Below the pieces are notes generated by a model. That model did not search any database, was not told the origin of the DNA, and saw only the letters and a list, made by a program, of their open reading frames with translations. From NCBI RefSeq assembly GCF_900446255.1, contig NZ_UIGI01000001.1, positions 1,390,763 to 1,454,762 on the forward strand: a stretch of 64,000 bases of DNA. The letters run 5' to 3'. The position numbers and the translations under genes were made by a program. Source of the DNA: Buttiauxella agrestis. GTDB lineage: Bacteria > Pseudomonadota > Gammaproteobacteria > Enterobacterales > Enterobacteriaceae. Shown one piece after another: positions 26,138 to 53,820 of this stretch (its first letter is position 1; each line of letters opens with the position of its first letter).

Positions 26138-26227
26138 TTTGCGCCTGTGGTTGGCGTGAGTTTACTTCGCATATCAATAATATTAGCGCGAAGCCGCTGA
26201 CCAACAGTCACCACAGTACCATTTGCA

Positions 26228-28039: not shown

Positions 28040-28041
28040 CT

Positions 28042-29879: not shown

Positions 29880-29941
29880 TATCTGCGCCGATAAAGGTGC
29901 AGGTAAGAAAAATTTTATAATTAACTGGAAGCATGCTGACT

Positions 29942-32665
29942 ATGGCTACGATTCATGTAGACGGCAAAGAATATGAGGTAAACGGGTCAGACAACCTGCT
30001 ACAAGCATGTCTGTCACTCGGCCTCGATATTCCTTATTTTTGCTGGCACCCGGCGCTAGGCAGCGTCGGTGCTTGCCGCCAGTGCGCGGTGAAGCAATAT
30101 CAGAACGCAGAAGATCTTCGTGGCCGCCTGGTGATGTCTTGTATGACACCGGCCTCGGACGGCACGTTCATCTCTATTGATGACGGTGAAGCAAAAGAAT
30201 TCCGTGAAAGCGTTGTGGAATGGTTGATGACCAACCACCCACACGACTGCCCGGTTTGTGAAGAAGGCGGCAACTGCCACTTGCAGGATATGACGGTCAT
30301 GACCGGTCATAGCTTCCGCCGCTATCGCTTCACCAAACGTACTCACCGTAATCAGGATCTCGGCCCGTTCATCTCTCACGAAATGAACCGCTGTATCGCC
30401 TGTTACCGCTGCGTGCGTTACTACAAAGACTACGCTGACGGCACCGACTTAGGTGTTTATGGCGCGCACGATAACGTCTACTTCGGTCGCCCGGAAGACG
30501 GCACGCTTGAGAGCGAATTCTCCGGTAACCTGGTAGAAATCTGCCCGACCGGCGTGTTCACGGACAAAACTCACTCCGAGCGTTACAACCGTAAGTGGGA
30601 TATGCAGTTCGCACCGAGCATTTGCCAGCAGTGCAGCATCGGCTGTAACACCAGCCCGGGTGAGCGCTATGGTGAATTGCGTCGTATCGAAAACCGTTAT
30701 AACGGCACCGTGAACCACTACTTCTTATGTGACCGTGGCCGCTTCGGTTATGGCTACGTCAACCTGAAGGATCGTCCACGTCAGCCGATCCAACGTCGTG
30801 GCGACGATCTGATCACCCTGAACGCTGAACAGGCGATGCAGGGAGCGGCGGATATTCTGCGCCAGTCGAAGAAAGTGATCGGTATCGGATCCCCACGTGC
30901 CAGCGTTGAAAGCAACTTTGCGCTGCGCGAGCTGGTCGGTGCGGACAACTTCTACACCGGTATCGCAACCGGTGAACAAGCACGCCTGCAACTGATGCTC
31001 AAAGTGCTGCAAGAAAGCGGCATTCATACACCGGCACTGCGTGAAATCGAATCTTACGATGCGGTTCTGGTGCTGGGCGAAGATATTACCCAAACCGGTG
31101 CACGTGTTGCGCTGGCTGTGCGTCAGGCCGTGAAAGGCAAAGCGCGTGAAATGGCAGCGGCACAGAAAGTGGCTGACTGGCAGATTGCCGCAATCCTGAA
31201 CATTGGCCAGCACGCCAAACACCCACTGTTTGTCACCAACATCGACAGCACTCGTCTGGACGATATCGCCGCGTGGACTTACCGTGCGCCGGTTGAAGAT
31301 CAGGCGCGTCTGGGCTTCGCAATCGCCAACGCGCTGGACAGCAACTCTCCAGCAGTTGAATTGGATCGTGACCTGAAAAACAAAGTCGACGTTATCGTGC
31401 AAGCGCTGGCGGGTGCGAAAAAACCATTGATCGTATCCGGTACTAACGCCGGTAGCGAAGCGGTGATTCAGGCGGCAGCCAACGTGGCTAAAGCACTGAA
31501 AGGCCGTGGTGCCGATGTCGGTATCACTATGGTCGCTCGCGCGGTTAACAGCTTAGGTCTCGGCATGATTGGCGGCGGCTCGCTGGAAGAAGCGTTAAGT
31601 GAGCTGGAAAGCGGTGCGGCCGATGCGGTCGTGGTGCTGGAAAACGATCTGCACCGCCATGCTTCAGCGGCGCGTGTTGACGCAGCACTGAGCAAAGCGC
31701 CGCTGGTAATGGTTATTGACCATCAGCGCACCGCGATTATGGACAAAGCCCACCTGGTGCTGTCCACCGCAAGCTTTGCTGAAAGCGACGGTACCGTGAT
31801 TAACAACGAAGGCCGCGCACAGCGTTTCTTCCAGGTTTATGACCCGTCTTACTACGACCATTCAGTGGTGATGCTCGAAAGCTGGCGCTGGTTGCACTCT
31901 CTGCACAGCACGGTTCAAAGCCGTGAAGTGGACTGGACGCAACTCGACCACGTTATCGATGCGTGCGTGAAAGCGCTGCCGCAACTGGCCGGAATTAAAG
32001 ATGCGGCACCAGATGCCAGCTTCCGTATTCGTGGTCAGAAACTGTCGCGTTCACCAATCCGCTCCAGTGGTCGTACGGCGATGCGCGCGAACATCAGCGT
32101 GCATGAACCGCGCCAGCCGCAGGATAAAGACACCATGTTTGCCTTCTCTATGGAAGGGAGCAACAGTCCGTCGGCAAATCGCCAGCAAATTCCATTTGCA
32201 TGGGCACCAGGCTGGAACTCACCGCAGGCATGGAACAAATTCCAGGCCGAAGTGGGTGGCAAACTGCGTCATGGCGATCCGGGTGTACGTCTGATTGAAG
32301 CGTCCGAAACGGGGATTGATTACTTCACCGACGTGCCGGAAATCTTCCATGCCGAAGAAGGGAAATGGCGTATCGCGCCTTACTACCATCTGTTTGGCAG
32401 CGATGAAATGTCCCAGCGTTCTCCGATATTCCAGAGCCGCATGGCCGAGCCGTACATCAAGCTCAATCCGGCAGACGCTGCAAAACTGGGCGTGAATGCG
32501 GGAAGCCTGATTTCGTTTAGTTACGAAGGCCAGACGTTGAGTCTGCCGCTGCAACTTTCCGAAGGTCTGGCAGCAGGGCAGGTTGGTTTACCGATGGGGA
32601 TGCCTGGCATTGCTCCGGTACTGGCGGGTGCTCGTCTTGAAAATCTCCAGGAGGCTGGCCAATGA
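29942..32665 (+). CDS. nuoG: NADH-quinone oxidoreductase subunit NuoG
   Basis: NuoG is the large iron-sulfur subunit of the electron-input arm. The ATG at 29942 gives 907 residues (E. coli 908) with GGAAG 10 bases upstream; the ATG at 29933 lies too close to that site. The [2Fe-2S] ligands are C34, C45, C48 and C67; the HxxxC pattern ([14 protein letters not shown]) binds N5; CIACYRC begins the next cluster; and CQQCSIGC with YFLCDRG form the N7 site present in E. coli-type enzymes. The C-terminal part is a molybdopterin-oxidoreductase-like fold lacking the cofactor. Overlaps nuoH by 4 bases. Confidence 0.97.
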
Positions 32666-33639
32666 GTTGGTTAACACCGGATGTTATCGACATTCTGCTG
32701 AGCATTCTTAAAGCGGTCGTGATCCTGCTGGTAGTAGTGACTTGCGGCGCGTTCATGAGCTTTGGTGAACGTCGTTTGCTGGGCCTGTTCCAGAACCGTT
32801 ACGGACCGAACCGTGTTGGCTGGGGCGGTTCGCTCCAGTTAGTCGCGGACATGATCAAGATGTTCTTTAAAGAAGACTGGACCCCGCGCTTTGCGGACCG
32901 CGTCATCTTTACCCTGGCACCGATGATTGCTTTCACCTCGATGCTGCTGGCCTTTGCGATTGTGCCAGTCAGCCCGAGCTGGGTGGTTGCCGACCTGAAC
33001 ATTGGTATCTTGTTCTTCCTGATGCTGGCGGGTCTGGCGGTGTACGCCGTACTGTTTGCTGGCTGGTCAAGTAACAACAAATACTCACTGCTCGGCGCGA
33101 TGCGTGCTTCGGCACAAACGCTGAGCTATGAAGTGTTCCTCGGTCTGTCGCTGATGGGCGTTGTGGCGCAAGCGGGTTCGTTCAATATGGGCGATATCGT
33201 CGATAACCAGGCGAACCTGTGGAACGTGATCCCGCAGTTCTTTGGCTTTATCACTTTCGCTATCGCAGGCGTTGCGGTTTGTCACCGTCACCCGTTTGAC
33301 CAACCGGAAGCAGAGCAAGAGCTGGCCGATGGTTATCACATCGAATATTCAGGCATGAAATTCGGTCTGTTCTTCGTCGGTGAATACATCGGTATCGTCA
33401 CCGTTTCAGCGATGATCGTGACCCTGTTCTTTGGTGGCTGGCATGGCCCGTGGTTACCGCCGTTCATCTGGTTCGCACTGAAAACTGCGTTCTTCATGAT
33501 GATGTTCATTTTGATTCGTGCTTCATTGCCTCGTCCGCGTTATGACCAGGTGATGTCCTTCGGCTGGAAAATTTGCCTGCCGTTGACACTGGTCAATCTG
33601 CTGGTGACCGCCGCGGTCATTCTCTATCAGGCACCATAA
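32662..33639 (+). CDS. nuoH: NADH-quinone oxidoreductase subunit NuoH
   Basis: NuoH is the membrane subunit that forms the quinone entry tunnel and links the peripheral arm to the proton-pumping arm. The 325 residues have eight hydrophobic segments. Conserved family loops are seen: [20 protein letters not shown] (about 35-54), KMFFKEDW, and the charged cytoplasmic loop [26 protein letters not shown] (about 213-238) near the quinone site. Length matches E. coli. It overlaps nuoG and precedes nuoI by 14 bases. Confidence 0.97.
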
Positions 33640-33653
33640 GGGGTGAAAAAACC

Positions 33654-34196
33654 ATGACATTGAAAGAGTTAGCGGTTGGTTTCGGCACCCAGGTACGCAG
33701 TATCTGGATGATCGGTCTGCATGCGTTTGCCAAACGCGAAACGCAGATGTATCCGGAAGAGCCAGTCTATTTACCGCCGCGCTACCGTGGCCGCATCGTG
33801 TTAACGCGCGATCCGGACGGCTCTGAGCGCTGCGTAGCCTGTAACCTGTGTGCGGTAGCCTGCCCGGTAGCCTGTATCTCTTTGCAAAAAGCAGAAACAA
33901 AAGATGGCCGCTGGTATCCAGAATTCTTCCGCATCAACTTCTCGCGCTGCATCTTCTGTGGCCTGTGCGAAGAAGCGTGCCCAACCACCGCGATTCAGCT
34001 GACTCCAGACTTCGAGCTGGGTGAGTTTAAGCGCCAGGATTTGGTGTACGAAAAAGAGGACCTGTTGATCTCCGGTCCGGGCAAATACCCGGAATATAAC
34101 TTCTACCGGATGGCAGGTATGGCAATCGACGGCAAAGATAAGGGCGAAGCGGAAAACGAAGCCAAGCCTATCGACGTCAAAGGCCTATTACCTTAA
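33654..34196 (+). CDS. nuoI: NADH-quinone oxidoreductase subunit NuoI
   Basis: NuoI is the ferredoxin-like subunit carrying two [4Fe-4S] clusters (N6a, N6b) that lead electrons to N2. The ATG at 33654 gives 180 residues, equal to E. coli; a longer frame begins inside nuoH and is not used. Cluster ligands are C60, C63, C66, C70 ([11 protein letters not shown]) and C99, C102, C105, C109 ([11 protein letters not shown]), with an additional Cys at 74 as partner. nuoJ follows after 12 bases. Confidence 0.97.
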
Positions 34197-34208
34197 AGGA
34201 GCAAGGCA

Positions 34209-34766
34209 ATGGAATTCGCTTTTTATATTTGCGCAATCATCGCGGTTGGGACCACCTTACGGGTGATCACACATACCAACCCGGTGCATGCCTTGCTGTA
34301 TCTGATCATCTCGCTGCTGGCAATCTCCGGGGTGTTTTTCTCCCTGGGAGCGTACTTCGCCGCAGCGCTTGAGATTATCGTTTACGCCGGTGCCATCATG
34401 GTGCTGTTCGTCTTCGTGGTCATGATGCTTAACCTTGGTGGCTCGGTTGTTGAACAAGAGCGCCAATGGCTGAAACCACAACTGTGGATTGGGCCTGGTG
34501 TTTTGTCTGCTGTCCTGCTGGCGGTGCTGGTTTACGCGATTCTCGGTCTGAATGACCAGGGTATCGACGGCACCTCAGTGAGTGCAAAAGCGGTAGGTAT
34601 CGCGCTGTTCGGACCGTACGTTCTGGCAGTGGAATTAGCCTCAATGCTGCTGTTAGCGGGTCTGGTTGTGGCCTTCCACCTGGGTCGTGAAGACCGCCCT
34701 GGTGAAGTGCTGAGCAATCGCCAGGCTGACGCGGCTGTGAAAAGAAAAACGGAGGAGCACGTATGA
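34209..34766 (+). CDS. nuoJ: NADH-quinone oxidoreductase subunit NuoJ
   Basis: NuoJ is a membrane subunit next to NuoA, NuoH and NuoK; its third helix is part of the conformational coupling path. The 185-residue protein has five hydrophobic helices and the conserved segment [20 protein letters not shown] at about residues 55-74. E. coli NuoJ has 184 residues. The charged C-terminal tail ([19 protein letters not shown]) is cytoplasmic. It overlaps nuoK by 4 bases. Confidence 0.97.
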
Positions 34767-35065
34767 TTCCGCTGCAACATGGACTAATCCTTGCTGCCAT
34801 TTTGTTCGTTCTTGGGCTGACTGGCCTGGTGATTCGTCGCAACCTGCTTTTCATGTTGATTAGCCTGGAAGTGATGATTAACGCCGCGGCGCTCGCGTTT
34901 GTGGTCGCCGGGAGTTATTGGGGCCAGGCTGACGGCCAGGTGATGTATATTCTCGCGATTAGCTTAGCTGCCGCCGAAGCCAGTATTGGCCTCGCGCTGT
35001 TATTGCAGCTCCATCGTCGTCGCCAGAGCCTGAATATCGATTCAGTAAGTGAGATGCGTGGATGA
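34763..35065 (+). CDS. nuoK: NADH-quinone oxidoreductase subunit NuoK
   Basis: NuoK is a 100-residue, three-helix membrane subunit related to MrpC. Both membrane glutamates important for proton translocation are present, Glu36 ([10 protein letters not shown]) and Glu72 ([11 protein letters not shown]). The length and start MIPLQHGLI equal E. coli. It overlaps nuoJ upstream and nuoL downstream by 4 bases each, giving a tightly coupled JKL block. Confidence 0.97.
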
Positions 35066-36903
35066 ACCTTCTCTGGTTAACCATTCTTTTGCCTTTTATT
35101 GGCTTTTTATTGTTGGCGTTCTCTCGTGGCCGTTGGTCAGAAAACCTTTCTGCCACGGTTGGAGTTGGCTCAATCGGCCTTGCGGCGTTAGTCACCGCGA
35201 TTGTCGGCGTTGATTTCTTCAACAACGGGCAACAAGCCTTCACGCAGCCTCTGTGGACCTGGATGTCAGTCGGTGATTTCAATATCGGCTTTAATCTGAT
35301 CCTCGACGGTTTGTCACTGACCATGCTGTCTGTGGTGACGGGCGTTGGCTTCCTGATCCACATGTACGCTTCCTGGTATATGCGCGGCGAAGAGGGCTAC
35401 TCCCGCTTCTTCGCCTACACCAACTTGTTTATTGCGAGCATGGTCGTTCTGGTGCTTGGCGATAACCTGTTGCTGATGTATCTCGGTTGGGAAGGCGTGG
35501 GTCTGTGCTCGTATCTGCTGATTGGTTTCTACTACACCGATCCGAAGAACGGCGCGGCGGCCATGAAAGCGTTCGTTGTGACCCGCGTGGGCGACGTGTT
35601 CCTCGCTTTCGCACTGTTCATTCTTTACAACGAACTGGGCACGCTGAACTTCCGTGAAATGGTTGAACTGGCACCGCAGCACTTTGCGGCTGGCAACCAA
35701 ATGCTGATGTGGGCAACCCTGATGCTGTTAGGCGGCGCGGTAGGTAAATCTGCGCAGTTGCCTTTACAGACCTGGCTTGCGGATGCAATGGCTGGCCCAA
35801 CGCCAGTTTCAGCGCTGATCCACGCGGCAACCATGGTTACCGCAGGTGTCTACCTGATTGCGCGTACTCACGGCCTGTTCCTGTTAACACCTGAAGTGCT
35901 GCATTTGGTGGGTATCGTAGGTGCAGTGACGCTGGTGATGGCAGGCTTTGCGGCACTGGTGCAAACCGATATCAAACGTGTGCTCGCGTACTCGACCATG
36001 AGCCAGATTGGCTACATGTTCCTGGCACTGGGCGTACAAGCGTGGGATGCGGCGATTTTCCACCTGATGACGCACGCTTTCTTCAAAGCGTTGCTGTTCC
36101 TGTCGTCTGGTTCGGTGATTCTTGCCTGCCACCACGAACAAAACATCTTCAAAATGGGTGGCCTGCGTAAGTCCATTCCGCTGGTGTATATCTGCTTCCT
36201 GGTCGGCGGTGCTGCGTTGTCTGCTCTGCCAATCATTACTGCGGGCTTCTTCAGTAAAGATGAGATTCTGGCCGGTGCGATGGCAAATGGTCATATGAAC
36301 CTGATGGTTGCAGGTCTGGTCGGTGCGTTTATGACCTCGCTGTATACCTTCCGTATGATCTTCATCGTCTTCCACGGTAAAGAGCAGATTCACGCGCATG
36401 CGCTTAAAGGCATCACTCACCACCTGCCGCTGATTGTGCTGCTGGTGTTGTCCACTTTCGTGGGGGCAATGATTGTTCCGCCATTAGCGGGCGTCCTGCC
36501 AGCGACCACAGAGCTTGCTCATGGTAGCGTGCTGACGCTGGAGATTACTTCAGGCGTTGTGGCTATCGCCGGCATCCTGATTGCAGCATGGCTGTGGCTG
36601 GGCAAACGCACTCTGGTGACCGCCATTGCTAACAGCGCACCGGGCCGCTTCTTCGGTACCTGGTGGTTCCATGCCTGGGGCTTCGATTGGCTGTATGACA
36701 AAGTCTTTGTTAAGCCATTCCTCGGTATCGCCTGGTTGATTAAGAGCGATCCGCTGAATTCACTGATGAACATTCCGGCAGTTCTTTCCCGCTTTGCAGG
36801 TCGCGGTCTGTTGGTGAGCGAGAACGGTTATCTTCGCTGGTATGTGGCATCAATGAGTATCGGCGCGGTGGTTGTTCTGGGCTTGCTGCTGGTCTTGCGC
36901 TAA
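35062..36903 (+). CDS. nuoL: NADH-quinone oxidoreductase subunit NuoL
   Basis: NuoL is the distal antiporter-like proton-pumping subunit, with the long lateral helix at its C-terminus. The 613-residue product matches E. coli. Glu144 ([12 protein letters not shown]) and the downstream Lys in [37 protein letters not shown] region, both essential in the family, are present. The last 100 residues hold the amphipathic lateral helix and final membrane anchor. A 206-base gap with a palindromic element separates it from nuoM, breaking the otherwise tight operon. Confidence 0.97.
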
Positions 36904-36960
36904 GTATTTAAGAGTTAAGTGAATTTTCTCTGAGAATTCGTTGAAAATTAGGTCCTGAAA

Positions 36961-37081
36961 AACAGGCGTCATCGGCGAAGTCAGACTAAACACCGCCAGC
37001 GCGGAGCAACCGGAGCGTACTTGAGTACGTGAGGATTGCGAGCACTGTCGGGGTTCGGTATGACGAGCAAGATAGCCTGAA
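36961..37081. repeat. Unidentified palindromic element in the nuoL-nuoM gap
   Basis: The only large gap inside nuo (36904-37109) contains an imperfect inverted-repeat element of about 120 bases. The outer ends CAGGCGTCAT and ATGAC...GCCTG are opposed, and the centre GCGTAC-TTGA-GTACG is a small perfect hairpin flanked by partly complementary GCAACC/GGATTGC stretches. It looks like a short non-autonomous repeat (MITE/RUP type) inserted in the leader of nuoM. I do not recognise it as ERIC or REP. The nuoM ribosome-binding site AAGGA is intact downstream. Confidence 0.55.
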
Positions 37082-37109
37082 CTGGACTTTAACAAGGATA
37101 TTTATTGCC

Positions 37110-38639
37110 ATGCTATTACCCTGGCTGATACTAATCCCCTTTATTGGCGGCTTCCTCTGCTGGCAGACTGAACGTTTCGGCGTAAAAGTGCCGCGTTGGA
37201 TCGCGCTGGTAACGATGGGGCTGACACTGGCTCTCTCTTTGCAACTGTGGTTAGCCGGTGGCTACACACTGACGCAATCCGCAGGTTTGCCGCAGTGGCA
37301 GTCTGAATTTGTTTTGCCGTGGATCCCACGCTTTGGGATTGAAATCCATCTGGCGTTGGATGGCCTGTCACTGCTGATGGTGGTCCTCACCGGTCTGCTC
37401 GGCGTGCTGGCGGTACTCTGTTCCTGGAATGAAATCGAAAAATATCAGGGCTTTTTCCACCTCAACCTGATGTGGATCCTCGGTGGCGTTATCGGCGTGT
37501 TCCTTGCCATCGACATGTTCCTGTTCTTCTTCTTCTGGGAAATGATGCTGGTGCCGATGTACTTCCTGATTGCACTGTGGGGCCACAAAGCCTCCGACGG
37601 GAAGACGCGTATCACCGCTGCGACCAAGTTCTTCATCTACACCCAGGCAAGCGGCCTGGTGATGTTGATTGCCATTCTTGGTCTGGTGTTCGTGCATTAC
37701 AACTCAACCGGCGTCTGGACATTTAACTACGAGCAATTGCTGCACACTGAAATGTCCAGCAGCGTTCAATGGTTACTGATGCTGGGCTTCTTCATTGCGT
37801 TTGCGGTGAAAATGCCAGTGGTTCCATTGCACGGTTGGCTACCCGATGCGCACTCCCAGGCACCGACGGCGGGTTCTGTTGACCTCGCAGGTATCTTGCT
37901 GAAAACCGCGGCCTACGGTCTGCTGCGTTTCGCACTGCCGCTGTTCCCGGAAGCGTCTGCTGAGTTTGCACCTATCGCGATGTGGCTGGGTGTCATCGGT
38001 ATCTTCTACGGCGCGTGGATGGCCTTCGCACAAACCGACATCAAACGTCTGATTGCTTATACCTCCGTTTCCCACATGGGCTTCGTGTTGATTGCCATTT
38101 ATACCGGCAGCCAACTGGCTTACCAGGGTGCGGTAATTCAGATGATTGCGCACGGTCTTTCTGCGGCCGGTATGTTCATCATCTGTGGTCAGATTTACGA
38201 GCGTCTGCACACTCGTGATATGCGTCTGATGGGTGGCCTGTGGAACAAAATTAAATGGCTGCCAGGTCTGTCGCTGTTCTTTGCAGTGGCAACGCTGGGT
38301 ATGCCGGGTACCGGTAACTTCGTTGGCGAATTTATGATTCTGTTCGGCAGCTACCGTGTCGTGCCAATGATTACGATTATCTCGACCTTCGGTCTGGTCT
38401 TTGCCTCTGTATATTCTCTGGCGATGATTCATCGTGCTTACTTCGGTAAAGCGAAAAGTGAAATCAGTGATAAACAACTGGCAGGCATGTCGCTGCGCGA
38501 GTTCTTTATCATCCTGTTGCTGGTGGTGTTGTTAGTCCTGTTGGGCTTCTACCCGCAGCCAATTCTGGATACTTCGCATTCCGCGATGAGCAATATTCAG
38601 CAGTGGTTTACCAGTTCAATTCCAACTACAAGGCCGTAA
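37110..38639 (+). CDS. nuoM: NADH-quinone oxidoreductase subunit NuoM
   Basis: NuoM is the second antiporter-like proton-pumping subunit of complex I. The ATG at 37110 behind AAGGA gives 509 residues, equal to E. coli; a longer frame from 37029 runs through the palindromic element and is not used. Glu144 (FFFWEMMLVPMYF) is present, and the segment KMPVVPLHGWLPDAHSQAPTAGS carries the conserved Lys and His region of the central helix. It has about 14 membrane helices. nuoN begins 6 bases after its stop. Confidence 0.97.
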   Translation: MLLPWLILIPFIGGFLCWQTERFGVKVPRWIALVTMGLTLALSLQLWLAGGYTLTQSAGLPQWQSEFVLPWIPRFGIEIHLALDGLSLLMVVLTGLLGVLAVLCSWNEIEKYQGFFHLNLMWILGGVIGVFLAIDMFLFFFFWEMMLVPMYFLIALWGHKASDGKTRITAATKFFIYTQASGLVMLIAILGLVFVHYNSTGVWTFNYEQLLHTEMSSSVQWLLMLGFFIAFAVKMPVVPLHGWLPDAHSQAPTAGSVDLAGILLKTAAYGLLRFALPLFPEASAEFAPIAMWLGVIGIFYGAWMAFAQTDIKRLIAYTSVSHMGFVLIAIYTGSQLAYQGAVIQMIAHGLSAAGMFIICGQIYERLHTRDMRLMGGLWNKIKWLPGLSLFFAVATLGMPGTGNFVGEFMILFGSYRVVPMITIISTFGLVFASVYSLAMIHRAYFGKAKSEISDKQLAGMSLREFFIILLLVVLLVLLGFYPQPILDTSHSAMSNIQQWFTSSIPTTRP

Positions 38640-38645
38640 TTCGCC

Positions 38646-40103
38646 ATGACTATAACTCCTCAACAATTGATCGCGCTGCTACCGCTGCTCGTCGTCGGAT
38701 TGACGGTGGTGGTTGTGATGCTCTCCATAGCGTGGCGACGCGACCATTTTGTCAATGCAACACTGGCAGTAATCGGCCTGAATGCCGCACTCGTTTCACT
38801 GTGGTTTGTTGGCCAGGCTGGCGCAATGGACGTCACGCCGCTGATGCGCGTTGATGGCTATGCGATGCTTTACACCGGTTTGGTTTTGCTGGCGAGCCTT
38901 GCGACTTGTACGTTTGCTTATCCGTGGTTGCAAGGTTATACCGACAACCGCGAAGAGTTTTACTTACTGGTATTGATTGCCGCTCTCGGCGGTATTCTGC
39001 TGGCTAACGCAAACCACCTGGCCGCGTTGTTCCTCGGTATCGAGCTGATTTCTCTGCCGTTGTTCGGTTTGATTGGTTACGCTTTCCGCCAGAAACGCTC
39101 GCTGGAAGCCAGTATCAAATACACTATTCTGTCTGCCGCAGCGTCTTCATTCCTGCTGTTCGGTATGGCGCTGGTGTATGCGGAATCTGGCGACCTGTCG
39201 TTTGTGAGCCTCGGTAAGAGCCTCGCCGATAACATGCTGCATGAACCGCTGCTGCTGGCGGGTCTGGGTCTGATGATTGTTGGCCTTGGCTTTAAACTGT
39301 CGCTGGTTCCGTTCCACCTGTGGACACCAGACGTTTACCAGGGCGCACCGGCTCCGGTTTCCACCTTCCTGGCCACTGCCAGCAAAATCGCCATCTTTGG
39401 TGTGGTGATGCGTCTGTTCCTCTACGCGCCAGTTGGCGATAGCGAAGCAGTGCGTGTGGTGCTGGGGATTATCGCCTTCGCTTCTATCATCGTCGGCAAC
39501 CTGATGGCGTTGAGCCAGACCAACATCAAGCGCCTGCTGGGTTACTCGTCTATCGCGCACCTGGGTTATCTGCTGGTGGCTCTGATTGCGCTGCAAAGCG
39601 GCGATATGTCGATGGAATCCGTTGGTGTGTATCTGGCCGGTTATCTGTTCAGCAGCCTCGGTGCCTTCGGTGTTGTCAGCCTGATGTCCAGCCCGTACCG
39701 TGGACCGGATGCTGATTCGCTGTACTCCTACCGTGGTCTGTTCTGGCACAAGCCGATTCTGTCTGCGGTGATGACCGTGATGATGCTGTCTTTGGCGGGT
39801 ATCCCAATGACACTGGGCTTCATCGGTAAGTTCTACATCATCGCCGTCGGCGTGCAGTCTCACCTATGGTGGCTGACCGGTGCTGTGGTGCTGGGTAGTG
39901 CGATTGGTCTTTACTACTATCTGCGTGTGACGGTGAGTTTGTATCTGAACGCACCGCAACAGCCAGGCCGTGATGCGCCAACAAACTGGGCATTTACTGC
40001 GGGCGGTGTTGTCGTGCTGATCTCCGCCGTGCTGGTGTTGTTGCTGGGTGTTTACCCGCAACCGCTGATTACGCTGGTGCGTATGGCGACACCGATGATG
40101 TAG
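38646..40103 (+). CDS. nuoN: NADH-quinone oxidoreductase subunit NuoN
   Basis: NuoN is the third antiporter-like subunit and the last gene of the operon. The 485 residues equal E. coli NuoN. Glu133 ([13 protein letters not shown]) and the [20 protein letters not shown] segment with its conserved Lys just before ([10 protein letters not shown]) are present. A hairpin terminator follows 18 bases after the stop, and beyond it the gene order departs from E. coli: phr comes next rather than the yfb/ela/men genes. Confidence 0.97.
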
Positions 40104-40120
40104 TTCCAACCCGACCTGTG

Positions 40121-40150
40121 AAAGGGCTGCCCAACAGGGTGGCCCTTTTT
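40121..40150 (+). terminator. Terminator of the nuo operon
   Basis: AAAGGGC-TG-CCC and GGG-TG-GCCCTTT form a 12-bp stem (two wobble pairs) with an AACA loop, followed directly by a T-rich run (TTTTTGTTTT). It is the last nuo-side landmark before the rearrangement point. Confidence 0.88.
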
Positions 40151-40234
40151 GTTTTATGGGCTTGCTACACTTAAGCGAGCATTTTCAAACGTGCGGAAGC
40201 ATATCTTGCGCCAGGTAATTAAATATGGAGTTTT

Positions 40235-41653
40235 ATGACCACGCATCTGGTCTGGTTTCGCAATGATCTACGGGTAAATGATAACCTGGCGTTAGCTGCC
40301 GCATGTCGTGACCCTCACGCTCGTGTCGTCGGTCTTTTTATTGCCACACCAGAGCAATGGCGGCAGCACGATATGGCGCCGCGTCAGGCCGAGTTTATCT
40401 GGCAACACGTGCAAAGTTTGTCTCGCGCACTTGCCCAGCGCGGCGTTGAGTTGCGGATTCATGAAGTGGCTGATTTTAATGACTGCGTTGAATACCTGAA
40501 GAGTTTCTGCGAACAGCAACACATCGACGCCCTGTTTTATAACTATCAATACGAACTTAATGAACGCCAGCGTGATGCAGCGGTTGAGAAGGCGCTGGGT
40601 CGGGATGTGGTTTGCCAGGGTTTTGATGACAGCGTATTACTGCCGCCCGGCAGCGTCACAACGGGCAATAACGAGATGTACAAAGTCTTCACGCCTTTTA
40701 GCAAAGCGTTTATCAAACGCTTGCACGAAGGTTTACCGGAATGTGTTCCGGCGCCGAAAGCACGTGAAATCACATTGCCTAAGCCAGAATTACTCCGCGA
40801 ATTTGATTATCCCCGCCAGCCAATAGATGAAAGTTTGTTCCCCATCGGCGAACAGCAGGCGATTAACCAACTGCGCCAGTTTTGCCACCAGCCGGTTGCT
40901 GATTACGAGCAACAACGGGATTTCCCCGCCATCGACGGGACCAGCCGCTTATCGGCGTATCTGGCGACTGGTGTGCTGTCGCCGCGCCAGTGTTTACATC
41001 GTCTGCTAAAAGAACATCCCCAGGCGCTGGAGGGGGGAAGTGGGAGTGTCTGGTTAAACGAATTAATCTGGCGCGAGTTCTATCGCCATTTGCTGGTGGC
41101 GTATCCGAAACTTTGTCGCCATCAGCCATTTATCTCATGGACAGACAACGTTGTCTGGCGACAAGATGAATCGCAGTTTCTCGCCTGGCAGCAAGGTAAA
41201 ACAGGTTTCCCGATTGTGGATGCGGCCATGCGCCAGCTCAACACCACAGGCTGGATGCACAACCGTTTACGCATGGTGGTGGCGAGTTTTCTGGTCAAAG
41301 ATTTATTGTGTGACTGGCGGCGTGGTGAACGTTACTTTATGTCACAGCTGATTGATGGGGATCTCGCCGCAAACAATGGCGGCTGGCAGTGGGCAGCCTC
41401 CACAGGCACCGACGCGGCACCCTATTTTCGCATCTTCAACCCGACCACACAGGGTGAGCGTTTTGATGCGCAAGGGGAATTTATCCGCCGCTGGTTGCCT
41501 GAGCTGACTGATGTTCCGGATAAATATATTCATACGCCCTGGGTTTGGGCAGAAAAACAACAATTGAAGCTGGACTATCCACGCCCCATTGTTGAACATA
41601 AACAAGCACGTATCGCGACACTCGCCGCTTATGAAGCGGCCCGGAAATCTTGA
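40235..41653 (+). CDS. phr: Deoxyribodipyrimidine photolyase Phr
   Basis: Phr splits cyclobutane pyrimidine dimers using blue light, with FAD and a methenyltetrahydrofolate antenna. The 472 residues match E. coli PhrB. Seen: the N-terminal Rossmann-like antenna domain (HLVWFRNDLRVNDNLAL), and the helical FAD domain with ELIWREFYRHLL, VDAAMRQLNTTGWMHNRLRM (about 328-347) and GGWQWAASTGTDAAPYFRIFNP (about 383-404). In E. coli ybgA precedes and dtpD follows phr; here nuoN precedes and ybgI follows after 10 bases. Confidence 0.97.
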   Translation: MTTHLVWFRNDLRVNDNLALAAACRDPHARVVGLFIATPEQWRQHDMAPRQAEFIWQHVQSLSRALAQRGVELRIHEVADFNDCVEYLKSFCEQQHIDALFYNYQYELNERQRDAAVEKALGRDVVCQGFDDSVLLPPGSVTTGNNEMYKVFTPFSKAFIKRLHEGLPECVPAPKAREITLPKPELLREFDYPRQPIDESLFPIGEQQAINQLRQFCHQPVADYEQQRDFPAIDGTSRLSAYLATGVLSPRQCLHRLLKEHPQALEGGSGSVWLNELIWREFYRHLLVAYPKLCRHQPFISWTDNVVWRQDESQFLAWQQGKTGFPIVDAAMRQLNTTGWMHNRLRMVVASFLVKDLLCDWRRGERYFMSQLIDGDLAANNGGWQWAASTGTDAAPYFRIFNPTTQGERFDAQGEFIRRWLPELTDVPDKYIHTPWVWAEKQQLKLDYPRPIVEHKQARIATLAAYEAARKS

Positions 41654-41663
41654 GAGAAAGAAG

Positions 41664-42407
41664 ATGAAAAATAGCGAACTCGAACGTCTGATTAACGAGA
41701 AGCTCAATAGTGCTGCGATAAGCGATTACGCACCGAATGGTTTGCAGGTTGAAGGGCGCGAAGAGATTCGCAAAATTGTGACCGGCGTGACCGCAAGCCA
41801 AGCGCTGATTGATGAGGCGATACGCCAACAGGCAGACGCTATCATCGTTCACCATGGTTATTTCTGGAAAGGTGAATCGCCGGTGATTCGGGGCATGAAA
41901 CGCAATCGCCTCAAAGCGCTGCTGGCTCACGATATCAATCTCTTCGGCTGGCACTTGCCGCTTGATGCGCATCCGCAACTCGGTAATAACGCGCAGCTTG
42001 GTGCGTTGCTGGGCATTGAAACCAAAGGTGAAATTGAGCCGCTGGTGCCCTGGGGAGAGTTCCCAACGCCACTTTCCGGCGTTGAACTGGCGTCATGGAT
42101 TGAGATGCGTCTGGGGCGCACACCGCTATGGTGTGGCGATACCGGCCCGGAACACATTCGTCGCGTGGCCTGGTGTACGGGCGGCGGGCAAAACTTTATT
42201 GATAGCGCGGCCCGTTTTGGCGTCGATGCTTTCATTACCGGCGAAGTTTCAGAACAAACTATTCACTCGGCGCGCGAACAAGGTCTGCATTTCTATGCGG
42301 CTGGCCATCATGCTACTGAACGCGGCGGCATCCAGGCATTGAGCGACTGGCTGAACAGCGAAACCGATTTAGACGTCACCTTCATTGATATTCCGAACCC
42401 GGCATAA
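41664..42407 (+). CDS. ybgI: YbgI, NIF3-family metal-binding protein
   Basis: YbgI is a hexameric di-metal NIF3-like protein of unclear function. The ATG at 41664 behind GAGAAAGAAG gives 247 residues, equal to E. coli; longer frames run into phr. Metal-binding residues are seen as H63-H64 ([11 protein letters not shown]), WHLPLDAHP, and the C-terminal [11 protein letters not shown]. It sits between phr and the pxp genes and is probably co-transcribed with both, with gaps of 10 and 20 bases. Confidence 0.95.
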
Positions 42408-42427
42408 CGCAAGACCGAGGAGAAAAA

Positions 42428-43084
42428 GTGCAAAGAGCACGCTGTTATCTATTAGGCGAAAGCGCAGTGGTTCTCGAACTGGAGCCGCCATTATCACTGG
42501 AAAGTCAGCAACGTATCTGGGGATTGACCCAACGATTACTGGAAGCGCCTTCCGTCTCGGAAGTTATCCCCGGGATGAACAATATCACCGTCGTATTACG
42601 TGAGCCGCAGAGCCTGGCGCTGGATGGCATTGAACGCATCCAACGCTGGTGGGAAGAGAGTGAAGCCATGATACCCACTTCGCGCTGCATGGAAATTCCT
42701 GTGATTTACGGTGGCAGCCACGGGCCAGATTTGGCAGAAGTGGCCGGGCATTGCGGTTTATCGGTAAGCCAGGTGGTCGAACAACACGCGGCGGTTGATT
42801 ACGTGGTCTATTTCCTCGGCTTCCAGCCAGGCTTTGCGTATCTGGCAGGGCTTGCGCCCACGCTTGTTACCCCACGACGCGCTGAACCGCGTTTGATGGT
42901 TCCTGCCGGTTCGGTGGGGATTGGCGGCAGTCAGACCGGAATTTACCCGCTGGCAACGCCGGGCGGTTGGCAGATTATTGGCCAGACGTCGTTGAAATTA
43001 TTCAATCCGGCAGAAGAGAAACCGACATTATTAACCCCGGGTGATACCGTGCGCTTTGTGCCTCAAAAGGAGGGCGTGTGCTGA
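42428..43084 (+). CDS. pxpB: 5-oxoprolinase subunit PxpB
   Basis: PxpB (YbgJ) is one part of the PxpABC 5-oxoprolinase, which uses ATP to open 5-oxoproline to glutamate. It is a KipI-type cyclophilin-like domain. The GTG at 42428 behind GAGGAG gives 218 residues, equal to E. coli. Family segments are [29 protein letters not shown] and [34 protein letters not shown]. It overlaps pxpC by 7 bases. The third subunit gene pxpA, which in E. coli follows pxpC, is not here. Confidence 0.95.
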
Positions 43085-44010
43085 AAATTATTCGTGCCGG
43101 GATGCACATGTCAGTGCAAGACACCGGGCGCTATGGCTATCGTCAATTAGGCGTGAGCCGCTGCGGTGCGCTTGATGCACCAGCGTTACAAATCGCTAAT
43201 TTGCTGGTAGGAAATGCCCCGGAAAGCGCAGCGCTGGAAATCACGCTCGGCCATTGCGTCGTTGAGTTTACTCAGGATACCTGGTTTGCCCTGACCGGTG
43301 CGGGTTGCCATGCCGAGTTGGATGGCCGTGCGGTGTGGACGGGCTGGCGTTTGCCGGTGAAAGCGGGTCAGCAACTGAAGCTCAAAAACCCTGAGCGTGG
43401 CATGCGGAGTTATCTTGCTGTTGCGGGTGGGCTGGATGTGCCTGAGGTTCTGGGGTCGTACAGTACCGATCTTAAAGCGCAGGTGGGTGGCCTTGAAGGA
43501 CGCTTACTGAAAGATGGCGATGAGATCCCTGTGCTACCCGCCACACGCCATTTCCGTGAAGCGCGGGGGGTGAAACAGCTGTTATGGGGAAATCGCATTC
43601 GGGCTCTGGCGGGACCGGAATATCATGAATTTACGCAAACTTCGCAAGATGAATTCTGGCGTCTGCCGTGGCAGTTAAGCCCCCAAAGTAACCGCATGGG
43701 CTATCGCTTACAGGGGCAGCGCCTGGAGCGCACCACTGACCGCGAGTTGCTGTCGCATGGCTTGTTACCCGGTGTGGTTCAGGTGCCGCATAACGGGCAG
43801 CCTATTGTGCTGATGAACGATGCCCAGACAACAGGCGGCTATCCGAGAATCGCCTGCGTAATTGAAGCCGATATGTTTAACCTGGCGCAAATACGACTCG
43901 GCGAACCCGTGCATTTTGTGCAATGCACGCTTGAGGAAGCGCTGAAAGCGCGTCGAGAGCAGCATATTTATCTCGAGCAACTGGCCTGGCGGCTGAATAA
44001 CGAAGACTGA
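43078..44010 (+). CDS. pxpC: 5-oxoprolinase subunit PxpC
   Basis: PxpC (YbgK) is the KipA/AHS2-type subunit that pairs with PxpB to form the ATP-using part of 5-oxoprolinase. The GTG at 43078 lies inside the pxpB end (7-base overlap), behind AGGAGGG, so the two are translationally coupled. The 310 residues match E. coli. Family segments: [26 protein letters not shown] at the start, [16 protein letters not shown], and [16 protein letters not shown] near residue 244. nei follows by 17 bases, leaving no room for pxpA. Confidence 0.95.
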
Positions 44011-44027
44011 TTTTCAGGGATAATGTG

Positions 44028-44819
44028 ATGCCAGAAGGCCCGGAAATACGACGAGCGGCGGATAAACTCGAAGCCGCGGTTTTAGGGAAGCCTATCACTG
44101 CGGCCTGGTTTGCCTTTCCTGCGTTAAAAGCGTTTGAACAGGCACTTGTCGGCCAAAAAGTTGAGCGTATCGAAACGCGCGGTAAAGCGTTACTGACGCA
44201 TTTTTCTGCCGGTTTAACCCTCTATAGCCACAACCAGCTTTACGGCGTGTGGCACGTGGTTACTTCAGGGGAAGTGCCTGAAACTAACCGGGTGTTACGC
44301 GTTAAATTGCAGACAGCCGATAAATCCATTTTGCTCTATAGCGCCTCGGACATTGAAATGCTCGACGCAGACGGCCTGGCGAGCCATCCATTTTTGCTCC
44401 GCGTCGGCCCGGATGTGTTAGATCTCAGCCTGAGTGCTGAACAGGTTAAAGAGCGACTATTATCAGCAAGATTTCGCAAGCGGCAGTTCAGCGGTCTGCT
44501 GTTGGATCAGGCATTTCTGGCAGGATTAGGAAACTATCTGCGCGTTGAAATTCTTTGGGCGGTGGGGTTGCTGGCGCAGCATAAAGCGCAGGATTTAACC
44601 CCCGGGCAACTCGACAAACTTTCGCATGCACTGCTGGATATTCCGCGCCATTCCTACAATACGCGTGGGAATGTCGATGAAAATAAGCATCATGGGGCGA
44701 TTTTTAGCTTTAAGGTGTTTCATCGGGCAGGGCAGAAGTGCGAGCGTTGCGGCGGCATAATCGAGAAAACAATGCTTTCATCCAGGCCATTTTATTGGTG
44801 CCCGGGCTGTCAGCATTAA
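44028..44819 (+). CDS. nei: Endonuclease VIII Nei
   Basis: Nei is a DNA glycosylase/AP lyase that removes oxidised pyrimidines. The ATG at 44028 gives 263 residues, equal to E. coli; a GTG three bases upstream would add one Met and bury the catalytic Pro, so it is rejected. The start is Met-Pro-Glu-Gly-Pro-Glu, so Pro2 is the nucleophile and Glu3 the acid after Met removal. The C-terminal zinc finger is C-x2-C...C-x2-C (CERCGG and YWCPGCQ). In E. coli pxpA lies just upstream; here pxpC does. Confidence 0.97.
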
Positions 44820-44911
44820 ACAATCCTGAAGATTGCGTTTATCTCATCGGGCAGAGATCGGGTATATTGGGACGCAGATCACAAAAAAATCTTAAAGGAA
44901 GACGTTGTACT

Positions 44912-45541
44912 ATGAGTTATCGTTTCGCCCTGACTGCCATGGCAGCCGTTTTAGCCCTCACGGGATGCACAAAATCGAAAACCGCCGACCAGGCTCCGGC
45001 TTTCGATTTCGGCTCCTCGCGGGTGACAGTGACGCATATCCCGACGAAAACTGACGATGGCACCGCAATTTACGTGACTGTCGATAGCAAGGATGCCGGT
45101 ACGCTGGGGACGAGTGAGAGTCTCGAGGTTCAACTGCCTGAGGGTAAACATAAAGTTGGCGGCTATGCCCGGACGCTGATTGGTCGCGTGACGATAGCGC
45201 CTGTCGAAGTATCGACATCGAGCGATATGATCAGCCATGTGACCTATTCTGTGGCGAACGGCAAACCGACATTTATCGTCCGCGCATCAACTCCCGTTCC
45301 GAAACCGAAGTCAGAATCGATTCCGGCGGAACCCATTCCGATGATACCGAAACAAATTGAAGAGCCTGCCGCCACCGAACAGACGCAGGCTGAAGCACCT
45401 GCCGCGCCAGTAGCGACGCAGGAAACACCGACGCCGAAAGTCACCGAGTTGACGCCAACCATTCAGTCGCCGACAGAGACGCAAACCTCGACACCGCAGG
45501 GTGTAAGCATCACTAATCTGACGGATACGCCGCAGGCATAA
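44912..45541 (+). CDS. Uncharacterised lipoprotein with Pro/Thr/Glu-rich tail
   Basis: I do not recognise this gene. The ATG at 44912 behind AAAGGAAGA gives 209 residues. A lipoprotein signal peptide is clear: YRFALTAMAAVLALTGC with lipobox L16-T17-G18-C19; position +2 is Thr, so it should go to the outer membrane. Residues about 28-120 look like a compact beta-rich domain (VTVTHIPTKTDDGTAIYVTVD, LPEGKHKVGGYARTLIGRVTIAPVE). Residues about 128-205 are a low-complexity Pro/Thr/Glu/Gln tail, likely disordered. It has its own upstream space (92 bases after nei) and converges on gltA. E. coli K-12 has abrB and ybgOPQD in this interval. Confidence 0.88.
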   Translation: MSYRFALTAMAAVLALTGCTKSKTADQAPAFDFGSSRVTVTHIPTKTDDGTAIYVTVDSKDAGTLGTSESLEVQLPEGKHKVGGYARTLIGRVTIAPVEVSTSSDMISHVTYSVANGKPTFIVRASTPVPKPKSESIPAEPIPMIPKQIEEPAATEQTQAEAPAAPVATQETPTPKVTELTPTIQSPTETQTSTPQGVSITNLTDTPQA

Positions 45542-45575
45542 CAATGCGCAGAGTTCAGGAGCTGTTTCAGATATA

Positions 45576-45602
45576 AAAAAACGCGCCATTTAGCGCGTTT
45601 TT
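45576..45602. terminator. Bidirectional terminator between the lipoprotein gene and gltA
   Basis: AAAAACGCGC/GCGCGTTTTT stem with a CATTTAG-like loop lies between two converging stops, with A and T runs on both sides. Confidence 0.9.
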
Positions 45603-45619
45603 ACTTTCCAGAAACGAAC

Positions 45620-46906
45620 TTATTTTTTCAAATCAGATTTGAAATCACGCTGTTCGTAGCCGGTGTACAGCTGACGTGGACGGGCAATTTTGATGCCGTC
45701 GTCGTGCATTTCGTTCCAGTGTGCAATCCAGCCCACGGTACGCGCCATCGCGAAGATAACGGTAAACATGGAAGATGGAATTCCCATCGCTTTCAGGATG
45801 ATACCGGAGTAGAAGTCCACGTTCGGGTAGAGTTTCTTCTCGATGAAGTACGGGTCGTTAAGCGCAATGTGCTCAAGTTCCATCGCCACTTCCAGCAGGC
45901 TGTTATCTTTCAGATTCAGCTCTTTCAGCACTTCATGGCAGGTTTCACGCATCACAGTGGCACGCGGGTCGTAGTTTTTGTAGACGCGGTGGCCAAAGCC
46001 CATCAGACGGAAAGAGTCGTTCTTGTCTTTTGCACGACGGATGAACTCAGGAATGTGTTCAACGCTGCTGATTTCTTCGAGCATCTTCAGTGCCGCTTCG
46101 TTAGCACCACCGTGCGCAGGTCCCCAAAGGGATGCGATACCGGCTGCGATACAGGCGAACGGGTTAGCACCAGAAGAACCGGCGGTACGCACGGTAGAGG
46201 TTGAAGCGTTTTGCTCGTGGTCGGCGTGAAGGATCAGAATACGGTCCATTGCACGTTCCAGAATTGGGTTCACCACGTACTCTTCGCACGGTGTGGAGAA
46301 CATCATATTCAGGAAATTGCCCGCGTAAGAGAGGTCGTTACGTGGGTAAACGAACGGTTGGCCGATGGAATATTTGTAACACATCGCTGCCATCGTTGGC
46401 ATTTTGGACAGCAGACGGAAAGCTGCAATCTCGCGGTGACGTGGGTTATTCACGTCCATGGAGTCATGGTAAAACGCTGCCAACGCACCGGTCACGCCGC
46501 ACATAACAGCCATCGGGTGAGAGTCACGACGGAAACCGTGGAACAAACGGGTGATTTGTTCGTGGATCATGGTGTGACGGGTAACGGTGGTTTTGAATTC
46601 TTCGTATTGTTCCTGAGTCGGCTTTTCACCGTTTAGCAGGATATAGCAGACTTCGAGATAATTGGAATGGGTTGCCAGTTGATCGATCGGGAAACCACGG
46701 TGCAACAAGATGCCTTCATCACCGTCGATAAAGGTGATTTTTGATTCGCATGATGCGGTAGAGGTGAAACCCGGGTCAAAAGTAAACACACCTTTAGAAC
46801 CAAGACTACGGATATCAATTACATCCTGACCGAGCGTGCCCTTTAGCACATCCAGTTCGATAGCATCATCACCATTGTAGGTGAGAGTTGCTTTTTTATC
46901 AGCCAT
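45620..46906 (-). CDS. gltA: Citrate synthase GltA (type II)
   Basis: GltA condenses acetyl-CoA and oxaloacetate to citrate, the entry of the TCA cycle. The product has 428 residues (E. coli 427) and is the NADH-sensitive hexameric type II enzyme. Catalytic segments are seen: [43 protein letters not shown] and PNVDFYSG (with the active-site Asp). The start [23 protein letters not shown] carries one extra residue near the N-terminus. It is divergent from sdhC across a 658-base control region. A GGAGAC ribosome-binding site precedes the ATG. Confidence 0.98.
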
Positions 46907-47564
46907 TTACGGTCTCCTTAGCGCCTAATTTATCAGACTGCGGGATGCCCGACTTGCTTTCAAACCAACCGTGACGCTTACCCGTTTTTTTATATGCTCG
47001 TGGCTCTGTTTTGATTGTGTACAGCAAGGGTACAGAGCGAAGGGCGCTTGCAGGTAACATATGCCACGCAGGCGAAAAATCAGCAAATCAGAGCGTTAGC
47101 AGTCCATATCATTCAAACCTGTATACCACTAATAACTGTCCTGATTGATTGGGTCAATACCGATACACTGTTACATAACTTATTCTCAGGTGAAAGGCAG
47201 ACCCTATAACTTTTACGAATTATACGGCTTTTCTGGCTCTGTTTGTAACAAGAATGTTTAAGTTTTGTCAAATCAGATGATTAAAATTTAAAATAATGTT
47301 GTTATCGTGATCCTGCTCACTGTTCCGACCAAAACCCTTCAAACTATATGTAGGTTAATTGTAATGAATTTGTGAAGCGCCTATACTGCCGCCAGGTCTC
47401 CGGAATACCCTGCCACCGGGCGCCACCCAGCGTTGTAGCCAGTTTTTTGGCATCTGGATGTAGCTGTTTTTGCATGACGCACAGTTATAGAAAGTTCACG
47501 CTGTCTGACCCCGCCTGCAGATCCGGAGGAAGGAAACTATAAGAACAGCATGTGGGCGCTATTC
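46907..47564. promoter_or_regulatory. Divergent gltA / sdhC control region
   Basis: This 658-base gap contains the promoters of gltA (leftward) and sdhCDAB-sucABCD (rightward). E. coli uses ArcA, CRP, Fnr and several sRNAs here. I see AT-rich ArcA-like tracts (47270-47305) next to a good CRP site at 47306-47321. The long sdhC leader (about 47345-47564) ends with GGAGGAAGGAAAC. A 64-codon frame at 47015-47209 lacks a ribosome-binding site and is treated as chance. Confidence 0.6.
47306..47321. promoter_or_regulatory. CRP site upstream of sdhC
   Basis: CGTGATCCTGCTCACT contains the two CRP core half-sites GTGA and TCAC separated by 6 bases, with flanks one base off the full TGTGA-N6-TCACA. It lies about 245 bases before the sdhC start. 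cAMP-CRP activation of sdh is established in E. coli. Confidence 0.7.
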
Positions 47565-47954
47565 ATGATAAAAAATGCGAAAAAACAAAGACCTGTAAAT
47601 CTCGATCTGACAACGATGAGGTTCCCCGTCACTGCGATCGCTTCCATCCTCCATCGTGTATCCGGCGTGATCACCTTTGTGGCTGTTGGCATTCTACTGT
47701 GGTTGTTAGGCCAGTCACTCTCTTCTCCAGAAGGCTTCCTCGTTGCTTCATCCATAATGAGTAGCTTCTTTGTGAAATTCATCATGTGGGGCATCCTCAC
47801 AGCGTTGGCATACCACGTTGTTGTGGGCATTCGCCACATCCTGATGGACACCGGCTTACTGGAAGAAACCCTTATAGCGGGCAAACGATCCGCAATGATT
47901 TCCTTTGTTATTACTGTCGTGCTTTCACTTCTCGCAGGAGTCCTCGTATGGTAA
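47565..47954 (+). CDS. sdhC: Succinate dehydrogenase cytochrome b556 subunit SdhC
   Basis: SdhC anchors complex II in the inner membrane and shares heme b and the ubiquinone site with SdhD. The ATG at 47565 gives 129 residues starting [15 protein letters not shown], equal to E. coli; an ATG at 47550 would add five unconserved residues. Ser27 and Arg31 (ASILHRVSG) line the quinone pocket and His84 ([11 protein letters not shown]) is the heme ligand. Three membrane helices are seen. Its stop overlaps the sdhD start by 7 bases. Confidence 0.97.
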
Positions 47955-48295
47955 GCAATGCCTCCGCATTAGGTCGCAATGGTGTGCATGACTATATTCT
48001 GGTTCGTGCCTCCGCCATCGTAATCACCCTGTACATCATCTATATGATTGGGTTTTTCGCTGTTACCGGCGATTTAACCTACGAGGTCTGGAGTGGTTTC
48101 TTCGGCTCCGCCTTCACCAAAGTGTTCACCCTGCTGACATTGTTCTCAATTTTGATCCATGCCTGGATTGGCATGTGGCAGGTGTTGACCGACTACGTTA
48201 AACCAGTGGCGATTCGTCTTGGGCTGCAATTCGTGATTGTTGTAGCACTGCTGGTTTACGTCATTTATGGATTCGTTGTGGTGTGGGGTGTGTAA
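47948..48295 (+). CDS. sdhD: Succinate dehydrogenase membrane anchor SdhD
   Basis: SdhD is the second membrane anchor of complex II. The ATG at 47948, inside the end of sdhC, gives 115 residues starting [16 protein letters not shown], equal to E. coli. His71 (heme ligand, [11 protein letters not shown]) and Asp82-Tyr83 (VLTDYVKP, quinone site) are present; three membrane helices. Its stop shares one base with the sdhA ATG (TAATG). Confidence 0.97.
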
Positions 48296-50061: not shown

Positions 50062-50076
50062 TAGCGGAGCAAAGTG

Positions 50077-50793: not shown

Positions 50794-50802
50794 CTTTTAG
50801 TT

Positions 50803-50911
50803 CCCTCTCCTTCGGGAGAGGGGAAAATTTGCAGGAAACCTTTAAAAACTGCCCTGTTGCGACAGTTTTTAAAGGTTCCTTCTCGAGCCGCCTGGAAAGG
50901 AAAAAGGCTCG
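50803..50911. repeat. Three stem-loops in the sdhB-sucA gap
   Basis: Three successive hairpins are present. 50803-50822: CCCTCTCC/GGAGAGGG closed by a UUCG tetraloop, sharing its core with the palindrome at 3817. 50837-50877: a perfect 15-bp stem AACCTTTAAAAACTG/CAGTTTTTAAAGGTT with an 11-base loop. 50884-50911: CGAGCC/GGCTCG. None has a clean T tail, so they probably protect or process the long sdh-suc mRNA rather than stop transcription. Confidence 0.8.
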
Positions 50912-50998
50912 TAGTTGTGAACCCCGGTAATGTGTACCACATGTGTACGCAATAGTTATTCACGGCGAAATAAGCATATAAATGCTTAAGGGATCACG

Positions 50999-53806: not shown

Positions 53807-53820
53807 TTAAAGGATAAAAA

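Follow-up and report, generated by a model that had tools for sequence, protein, structure and literature searches.

Eisen et al. (2000) and Tillier and Collins (2000) are reportedly cited in the literature on symmetric inter-replichore inversions. These inversions are well known, and the reasons proposed for their tolerance in PMC5850607 are strand orientation, dosage and replichore balance. In host-specific Salmonella, rearrangements reportedly arise by recombination between rrn operons (PMC2957434). Another relevant system is RudS, a TudS-DUF1722 fusion that PMC11417400 presents as a tRNA 4-thiouridine desulfidase, the genes of which often lie within light-responsive operons together with photolyases. 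Among the matches listed in the open-access literature, none describes the Buttiauxella inversion reported here in its title or at the start of its abstract.

The DNA analyzed in this study, hereafter the window, is a stretch of 64,000 nucleotides from Buttiauxella agrestis in which the nuo operon adjoins a block of genes that begins with phr (Table 1). We are highly confident that this nuoN-phr junction is one end of a single inversion of approximately 2 Mb, which spans the terminus and occurred in the Buttiauxella ancestor. The stop codon of nuoN (TAG, 40101-40103) is separated from the ATG of phr at 40235 by a spacer of 131 bases, and this spacer contains a hairpin of 13 pairs with a T tail at 40120-40149. 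The folding energy of 40120-40160 is -21.6 kcal/mol (z -3.7), and 1 of 200 shuffles was equally stable. In the NCBIfam search of the window, NuoN scored 934 bits (cut-off 531) and Phr scored 890 bits (cut-off 506); AckA, NuoF, GltA, SdhA, SucD, CydA, CydB and TolQ were also named at their expected positions. Among the species genomes searched with the photolyase of the window, B. agrestis ATCC 33320 was the best match (97% protein identity), and a three-gene tree groups the window with it (98% identity). In E. coli K-12, phr lies at 739.5-740.9 kb and nuoN at 2390.0-2391.5 kb. The first-pass annotation of this sequence was correct about the length of the spacer, the nuo terminator within it and the distance between the two genes in K-12, and tblastn with K-12 proteins bore out its statement that the gene order inside the phr-tol block is preserved. 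It had also remarked that the K-12 neighbors are missing here. They are indeed absent, but not because of the junction: dtpD and abrB are also absent beside phr in many relatives without the nuoN-phr junction, and the yfb genes, which we sought between nuoN and menF, were not found in six of seven outgroups (some occur in G021). Because K-12-type yfb genes were not found there in most of these outgroups either, the junction is not the cause of their absence from the window.

Table 1. Features at and around the nuoN-phr junction (positions in the window).
Feature	Position	Strand	Basis or remark
nuo operon (nuoA to nuoN)	25004..40103	+	tblastn with K-12 proteins; NCBIfam NuoF and NuoN
Inversion breakpoint interval, nuoN stop codon to hairpin	40104..40122	.	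right side matches outgroup ybfA-ybgA spacers from the hairpin onward; nuoN is the old left side
Predicted intrinsic terminator now closing nuo; origin, ybfA-ybgA spacer	40120..40149	+	folding, hairpin scan, spacer comparison
TTGCTACACTTA, conserved promoter-like element; precedes ybgA in relatives, now phr	40162..40173	+	conservation
Putative extended -10 (TG-C-TACACT) inside the TTGCTACACTTA element	40163-40171	+	conservation
ybgA deletion scar	40174..40204	.	comparison with ybgA-bearing Buttiauxella
Remnant: final codons and stop of ybgA	40205..40222	+	read against L012, L014
GGAG, likely phr ribosome-binding site, retained from the ybgA-phr junction	40227..40230	+	
phr, deoxyribodipyrimidine photolyase	40235..41653	+	NCBIfam NF007955, 890 bits
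phr-ybgI-pxpBC-nei-gltA-sdh-suc-cyd-tolQ block	40235..62424	.	adjoined kdp-ybfA before the inversion

The comparison of gene order across genomes confirmed the adjacency and indicated that it is not particular to this genome, since nuoN adjoins phr, or ybgA followed by phr, in all 12 Buttiauxella genomes examined. In seven of them phr directly follows nuoN, as in the window, and in the other five (G006, G009, G010, G011 and G012) ybgA lies between the two genes, with phr 1.1-3.3 kb past nuoN. Among 80 named phr loci, nuoN is located upstream of phr only in L011-L015 and L046, all of them Buttiauxella records that partly overlap with the 12 genomes (some are the same genomes). We also surveyed 119 genomes of the family from 118 genera, approximately one genome per genus, with a strict match cut-off. 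At this cut-off, phr was detected in 81 genomes, nuoN in 90 and both in 73, leaving 46 without one or both genes. The two genes share a contig in 35 of the 73 and occupy separate contigs in 38, for some of which adjacency is still possible. They lie less than 2 kb apart on one contig in 2 of the 73, G001 and G003, both Buttiauxella; the next-nearest pair is 193 kb apart within a 1-Mb genome.

The first-pass annotation left the choice between an inversion and a translocation end and expected the reciprocal junction to place ybgA next to the yfb/men genes. A reciprocal junction does exist and involves the ela and men genes, but the partner is ybfA/kdp rather than ybgA. Its order in Buttiauxella is kdpA(-) ybfA(+) elaA(+) elaB(+) menF(+) menD(+). 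The kdpA-menF distance is 1.25-3.8 kb on one contig in 11 of the 12 genomes; in G005, the menF contig contains just the beginning of kdpA, and the examined stretch begins at ybfA and so does not include kdpA. We did not find elaA in G001. No ybgA was found beside men in Buttiauxella, and in the five genomes that retain ybgA, the gene adjoins phr. In the outgroups, kdpA is beside phr in 11 of 12 (on different contigs in G031), and menF is beside nuoN in 10 of 12 (no menF match in G111 and G031). On a circular chromosome, junctions of nuo with phr and of kdp with men in these orientations mean that the arc between the two cuts is inverted. Both reciprocal junctions and their inverted polarities are direct observations; for the strain of the window itself, we infer the reciprocal junction from G001 and the rest of the genus. 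According to the model that we propose, one cut would have fallen between ybfA and ybgA, separating kdp-ybfA from ybgA-phr-gltA-sdh-suc-cyd-tol on one replichore, and the other would have fallen between nuoN and elaA, separating nuo from ela-men on the opposite replichore. Flipping of the arc with the terminus and rejoining would then have generated nuoN-ybgA-phr, the end seen in the window, and kdp-ybfA-elaA-elaB-menF.

Three other explanations of the gene order were considered. An assembly artefact at nuoN-phr has nothing in its favor except the unusual order itself. The same neighborhood recurs in 12 of 12 Buttiauxella genomes and in the six named records L011-L015 and L046, and in G009, G010 and G012, the junction lies within contigs of 4.6-5.2 Mb; therefore, it represents neither chance nor misassembly, and we rule the artefact out, on the basis of these independent assemblies, as having practically no probability. 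For the view that the Buttiauxella order is ancestral and that of E. coli and the others derived, we found no supporting point. The order kdpA-ybfA-(ybgA)-phr extends across Cedecea, Atlantibacter, Klebsiella, Citrobacter, Enterobacter, Serratia, Rahnella and four of seven Yersinia loci, and Dryocola has ybfA-ybgA-phr (kdpA was not found in the examined stretch). Furthermore, the nuoN-phr state changes only once on a tree of 27 rows, on the Buttiauxella branch (SH-aLRT 100), and ancestral retention is rejected as extremely improbable. This is a quick tree built from nuoN, phr and ybgI, all junction neighbors, and it omits G011, in whose stretch phr is only partial. The metagenome-assembled genome L017, named uncultured Buttiauxella, retains the pre-inversion order and branches outside the genus on this tree. 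A translocation that set the phr-tol block behind the nuo operon, with the remainder not inverted, is compatible with the nuoN-phr junction taken alone and with the preserved internal order of the block. However, kdp-ybfA would then abut whatever came after the block, whereas it joins ela-men with the polarity of an inversion in 12 of 12 genomes. Moreover, in G009, G010 and G012, the dif arc is flanked by phr and men and the ori arc by nuo and kdp, and the same holds in G100 with the ends exchanged. The reciprocal kdp-ybfA/ela-men junction and its polarity thus rule out a block translocation, the probability of which we consider minute, and a single inversion is the explanation that we retain.

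The inversion was placed from its ends, dif and mnmG, the last of which lies beside oriC. In G009, G010 and G012, the cuts are on opposite replichores, and the inverted arc contains the terminus. The distances from dif to nuoN-phr and to kdp-men are 1069 and 1125 kb in G009, 881 and 1039 kb in G010, and 1047 and 1257 kb in G012. The corresponding distances to the old junctions kdp-phr and nuoN-men are 912 and 921 kb in G100, 849 and 792 kb in G143, 1106 and 836 kb in G106, and 852 and 799 kb in K-12. The asymmetry is 57, 158 and 210 kb in the three Buttiauxella genomes (in the same order) versus 9, 57 and 270 kb in the outgroups G100, G143 and G106, and the inversion is therefore roughly, but only approximately, symmetric about dif. 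Since the cuts lay at similar distances from dif, one on each replichore, the event would have had little effect on dosage, strand bias and arm lengths, which probably made it tolerable and close to neutral. In G010, dif (G010:C2:4284884-4284911) is reversed relative to phr in comparison with G009, G012 and G100, which suggests a further, later inversion near the terminus. In G009, a second dif-like site with two mismatches is present on the second contig (G009:C2:91482-91509), and the exact dif is on the main contig.

The first-pass annotation held that the junction gathers most of the respiratory and TCA complexes. Complex I, the TCA enzymes and cytochrome bd do lie within approximately 36 kb of the window (25.0-60.8 kb), but a functional cluster is unsupported, and we saw no sign in this analysis that the rearrangement functionally links respiratory genes. 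Selection of the rearrangement for the joint regulation of the genes brought together in these approximately 36 kb would agree with the physical closeness of the loci and the presence of the junction in 12 of 12 Buttiauxella genomes. However, a terminator-like hairpin stands between nuo and phr, phr itself is not respiratory, and the junction is downstream of nuo, where it would have left the promoter region untouched. The dif distances are also of the same order as in the outgroups, and a single event cannot demonstrate selection. We consider such selection very improbable.

The spacers on the two sides of the inversion indicate where the cuts occurred. In 12 outgroup rows, nuoN is followed by a CCGCC..GGCGG hairpin in ten, by a CCCGC variant in G119 and by a degenerate form in L017. 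In contrast, a GGCTACC-like hairpin (GGCTGCC or GGCTACT in some) follows nuoN in all 19 Buttiauxella rows, which include the window and several genomes present twice, and TTGCTACACTTA trails this hairpin in every row but that of G009. The GGCTACC hairpin and TTGCTACACTTA precede ybgA or its remnant in Dryocola, Cedecea, G100 and G106, and in L017 with one change. Conversely, in 6 of the 12 Buttiauxella genomes (G001, G002, G006, G010, G011 and G012), ybfA is followed by CCGCC-CTTG-GGCGG-T7 and ATGCGTGAAGATA (with small changes), the arrangement found after nuoN in the outgroup G100. In G009, this hairpin sits just before elaA, and a different terminator and an insert of approximately 1.9 kb follow ybfA in G003, G004, G005, G007 and G008.

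Local alignments against shuffles that preserve base composition only gave the same picture; five of the 19 rows after nuoN, five of the 12 after ybfA (the five insert-bearing genomes, G009 and G011 were omitted) and five outgroup rows per side were used. The Buttiauxella nuoN spacers match the outgroup ybfA-ybgA spacers with z of 7.1-28.8 versus -1.3 to 5.3 for the outgroup nuoN spacers. The Buttiauxella ybfA spacers match the nuoN spacers of four of five outgroups with z of 13.1-30.0 versus -0.6 to 3.0 for the GGCTACC spacers; the fifth, L017, gave 1.7-2.6, and its spacer matches neither side. Because the matches are swapped between the loci, the breakpoints lie between the stop codons and the hairpins, in the window at approximately 40104-40122. 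The first-pass annotation had placed the break at 40151-40230, which we reject, since 40120-40173 derives from the ybgA side and the break is upstream of the hairpin. Judged by these sequence comparisons, the two loci have exchanged intrinsic terminators: nuoN now carries the ybgA-side hairpin and ybfA the old hairpin of nuoN. With both cuts between a stop codon and the downstream intrinsic terminator, each unit retained one terminator. Both seams have taken up genes in G009, namely a chemotaxis-receptor gene (L100:4293-6080) between nuoN and ybgA and a yfbK-like piece (L098:7710-8243) at the reciprocal junction. Between ybfA and elaA, G007 carries a phosphoethanolamine-transferase-like gene (L095:7384-8934), for which the best NCBIfam match is the CptA subfamily, far under the curated cut-offs; gaps of similar size with a similar terminator occur in G003, G004, G005 and G008.

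With blastn on approximately 3 kb at each junction of G006, G010 and G012, no long shared repeats were found, the longest shared stretch being 18 bases, and the old loci of four outgroups share at most 16 bases; repeats that have since been lost are possible. In G100, the two best stretches common to the old loci measure 16 and 15 bases, and their coordinates place them at the terminators that follow ybfA and nuoN. C. sulfonylureivorans resembles G100 in the terminators at both ancestral sites. In both, ybfA has its own CCGCC-type terminator, which the Buttiauxella ybfA spacers resemble (z 9.4-14.4), and the hairpins at the two sites are unlike in Dryocola, C. davisae, G106 and L017. A crossover may have taken place within a pair of similar hairpins, followed by loss of the surplus copy at the nuoN end. 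We regard it as possible but rather unlikely that the inversion proceeded by exchange at intrinsic terminators, with the similar CCGCC-GGCGG-T7 hairpins after ybfA and nuoN acting as short repeats or break-prone hairpins. If this were true, terminators would be recurrent seams for inter-replichore inversions that leave every operon properly ended. More generally, the ends may have been joined by microhomology or by terminator-terminator exchange. Palindromic stretches, which are possible mediators, occur between the nuoN stop codon and the terminator in G003, G005, G008 and G009. A repeat scan of three junction stretches, with arms at most 60 bases apart, yielded one pair, in G009, and has no bearing on repeats shared by both junctions.

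The short nuoN-phr spacer reflects a later event than the inversion, namely a deletion of ybgA, of which a remnant is visible. The ybgA gene, a RudS-type tRNA s4U desulfidase gene, moved with phr and was deleted afterwards in the lineage of the window, between the promoter-like element and the final ybgA codons, placing phr directly after the element. Conservation suggests that the TTGCTACACTTA element acts as a promoter; a consensus promoter scan of the window spacer did not report it. In L012 and L014, ybgA lies between nuoN and phr and encodes a 318-aa product with Cys12, Cys44 and Cys110, of which only the C-terminal part matched an NCBIfam model, that of K-12 YbgA. The absence of ybgA between the promoter-like element and phr is recurrent (window 40174-40222; L013, L015, L017, L026, L111 and L113), and no ybgA match was found beside phr in five Enterobacter loci, L032, L061, G100, G106 and L017. 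The presence of ybgA changes at least six times over the 27 tree rows, and the scars are of at least three kinds, represented by B. agrestis/G002/G007, B. gaviniae/B. noackiae and B. izardii/G004. The nuoN-phr spacer of G007 (L124) is nearly identical to that of the window, yet the tree places G007 with B. gaviniae and B. noackiae; recombination between species may have given it the agrestis-type spacer.

The block also lacks pxpA. The product of this gene is 5-oxoprolinase subunit A. The gene is absent at 44007-44028, and pxpB and pxpC are retained. No pxpA match was found between pxpC and nei or gltA in the Buttiauxella, Cedecea, Dryocola, RIT691 and Mangrovibacter loci (L011-L019, L025, L046 and L061). 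A homologue with 43-46% identity is present elsewhere in G001, G009, G010, G012, G100 and G106 and is possibly a replacement.

This case provides a clean reciprocal inversion across the terminus in which each junction is narrowed to within tens of bases, and its junction is a marker that separates the examined Buttiauxella genomes from Cedecea and Dryocola. The terminator exchange illustrates how a megabase inversion can leave both operons hairpin-ended, and it raises a testable question, namely whether terminators are the sites of such breaks in excess of expectation. The recurrent lack of ybgA next to phr is relevant to the part that RudS plays in light stress.

The three cysteines of the L012 and L014 products are at the positions listed for Salmonella RudS in PMC11417400. 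Compared with RudS, the gene is gone from the window, where the promoter-like element and the final codons remain, and YbgA of K-12 is a stand-alone DUF1722 protein. The rrn rearrangements of Salmonella are likewise large-scale, chromosomal and in Enterobacteriaceae; in contrast, the uninterrupted junction spacers of Buttiauxella are approximately 90-150 bases, too short for an rRNA operon. The known symmetric inter-replichore inversions share with this event the cuts on opposite replichores at a similar distance from dif and the maintenance of block order and of leading/lagging orientation. Compared with them, the Buttiauxella junctions share no stretch longer than 18 bases (three genomes), and the event differs not in kind but in being resolved to tens of bases, with the terminators exchanged. 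The nuoN-phr inversion is thus ordinary in kind, and the terminator exchange is its less ordinary detail.
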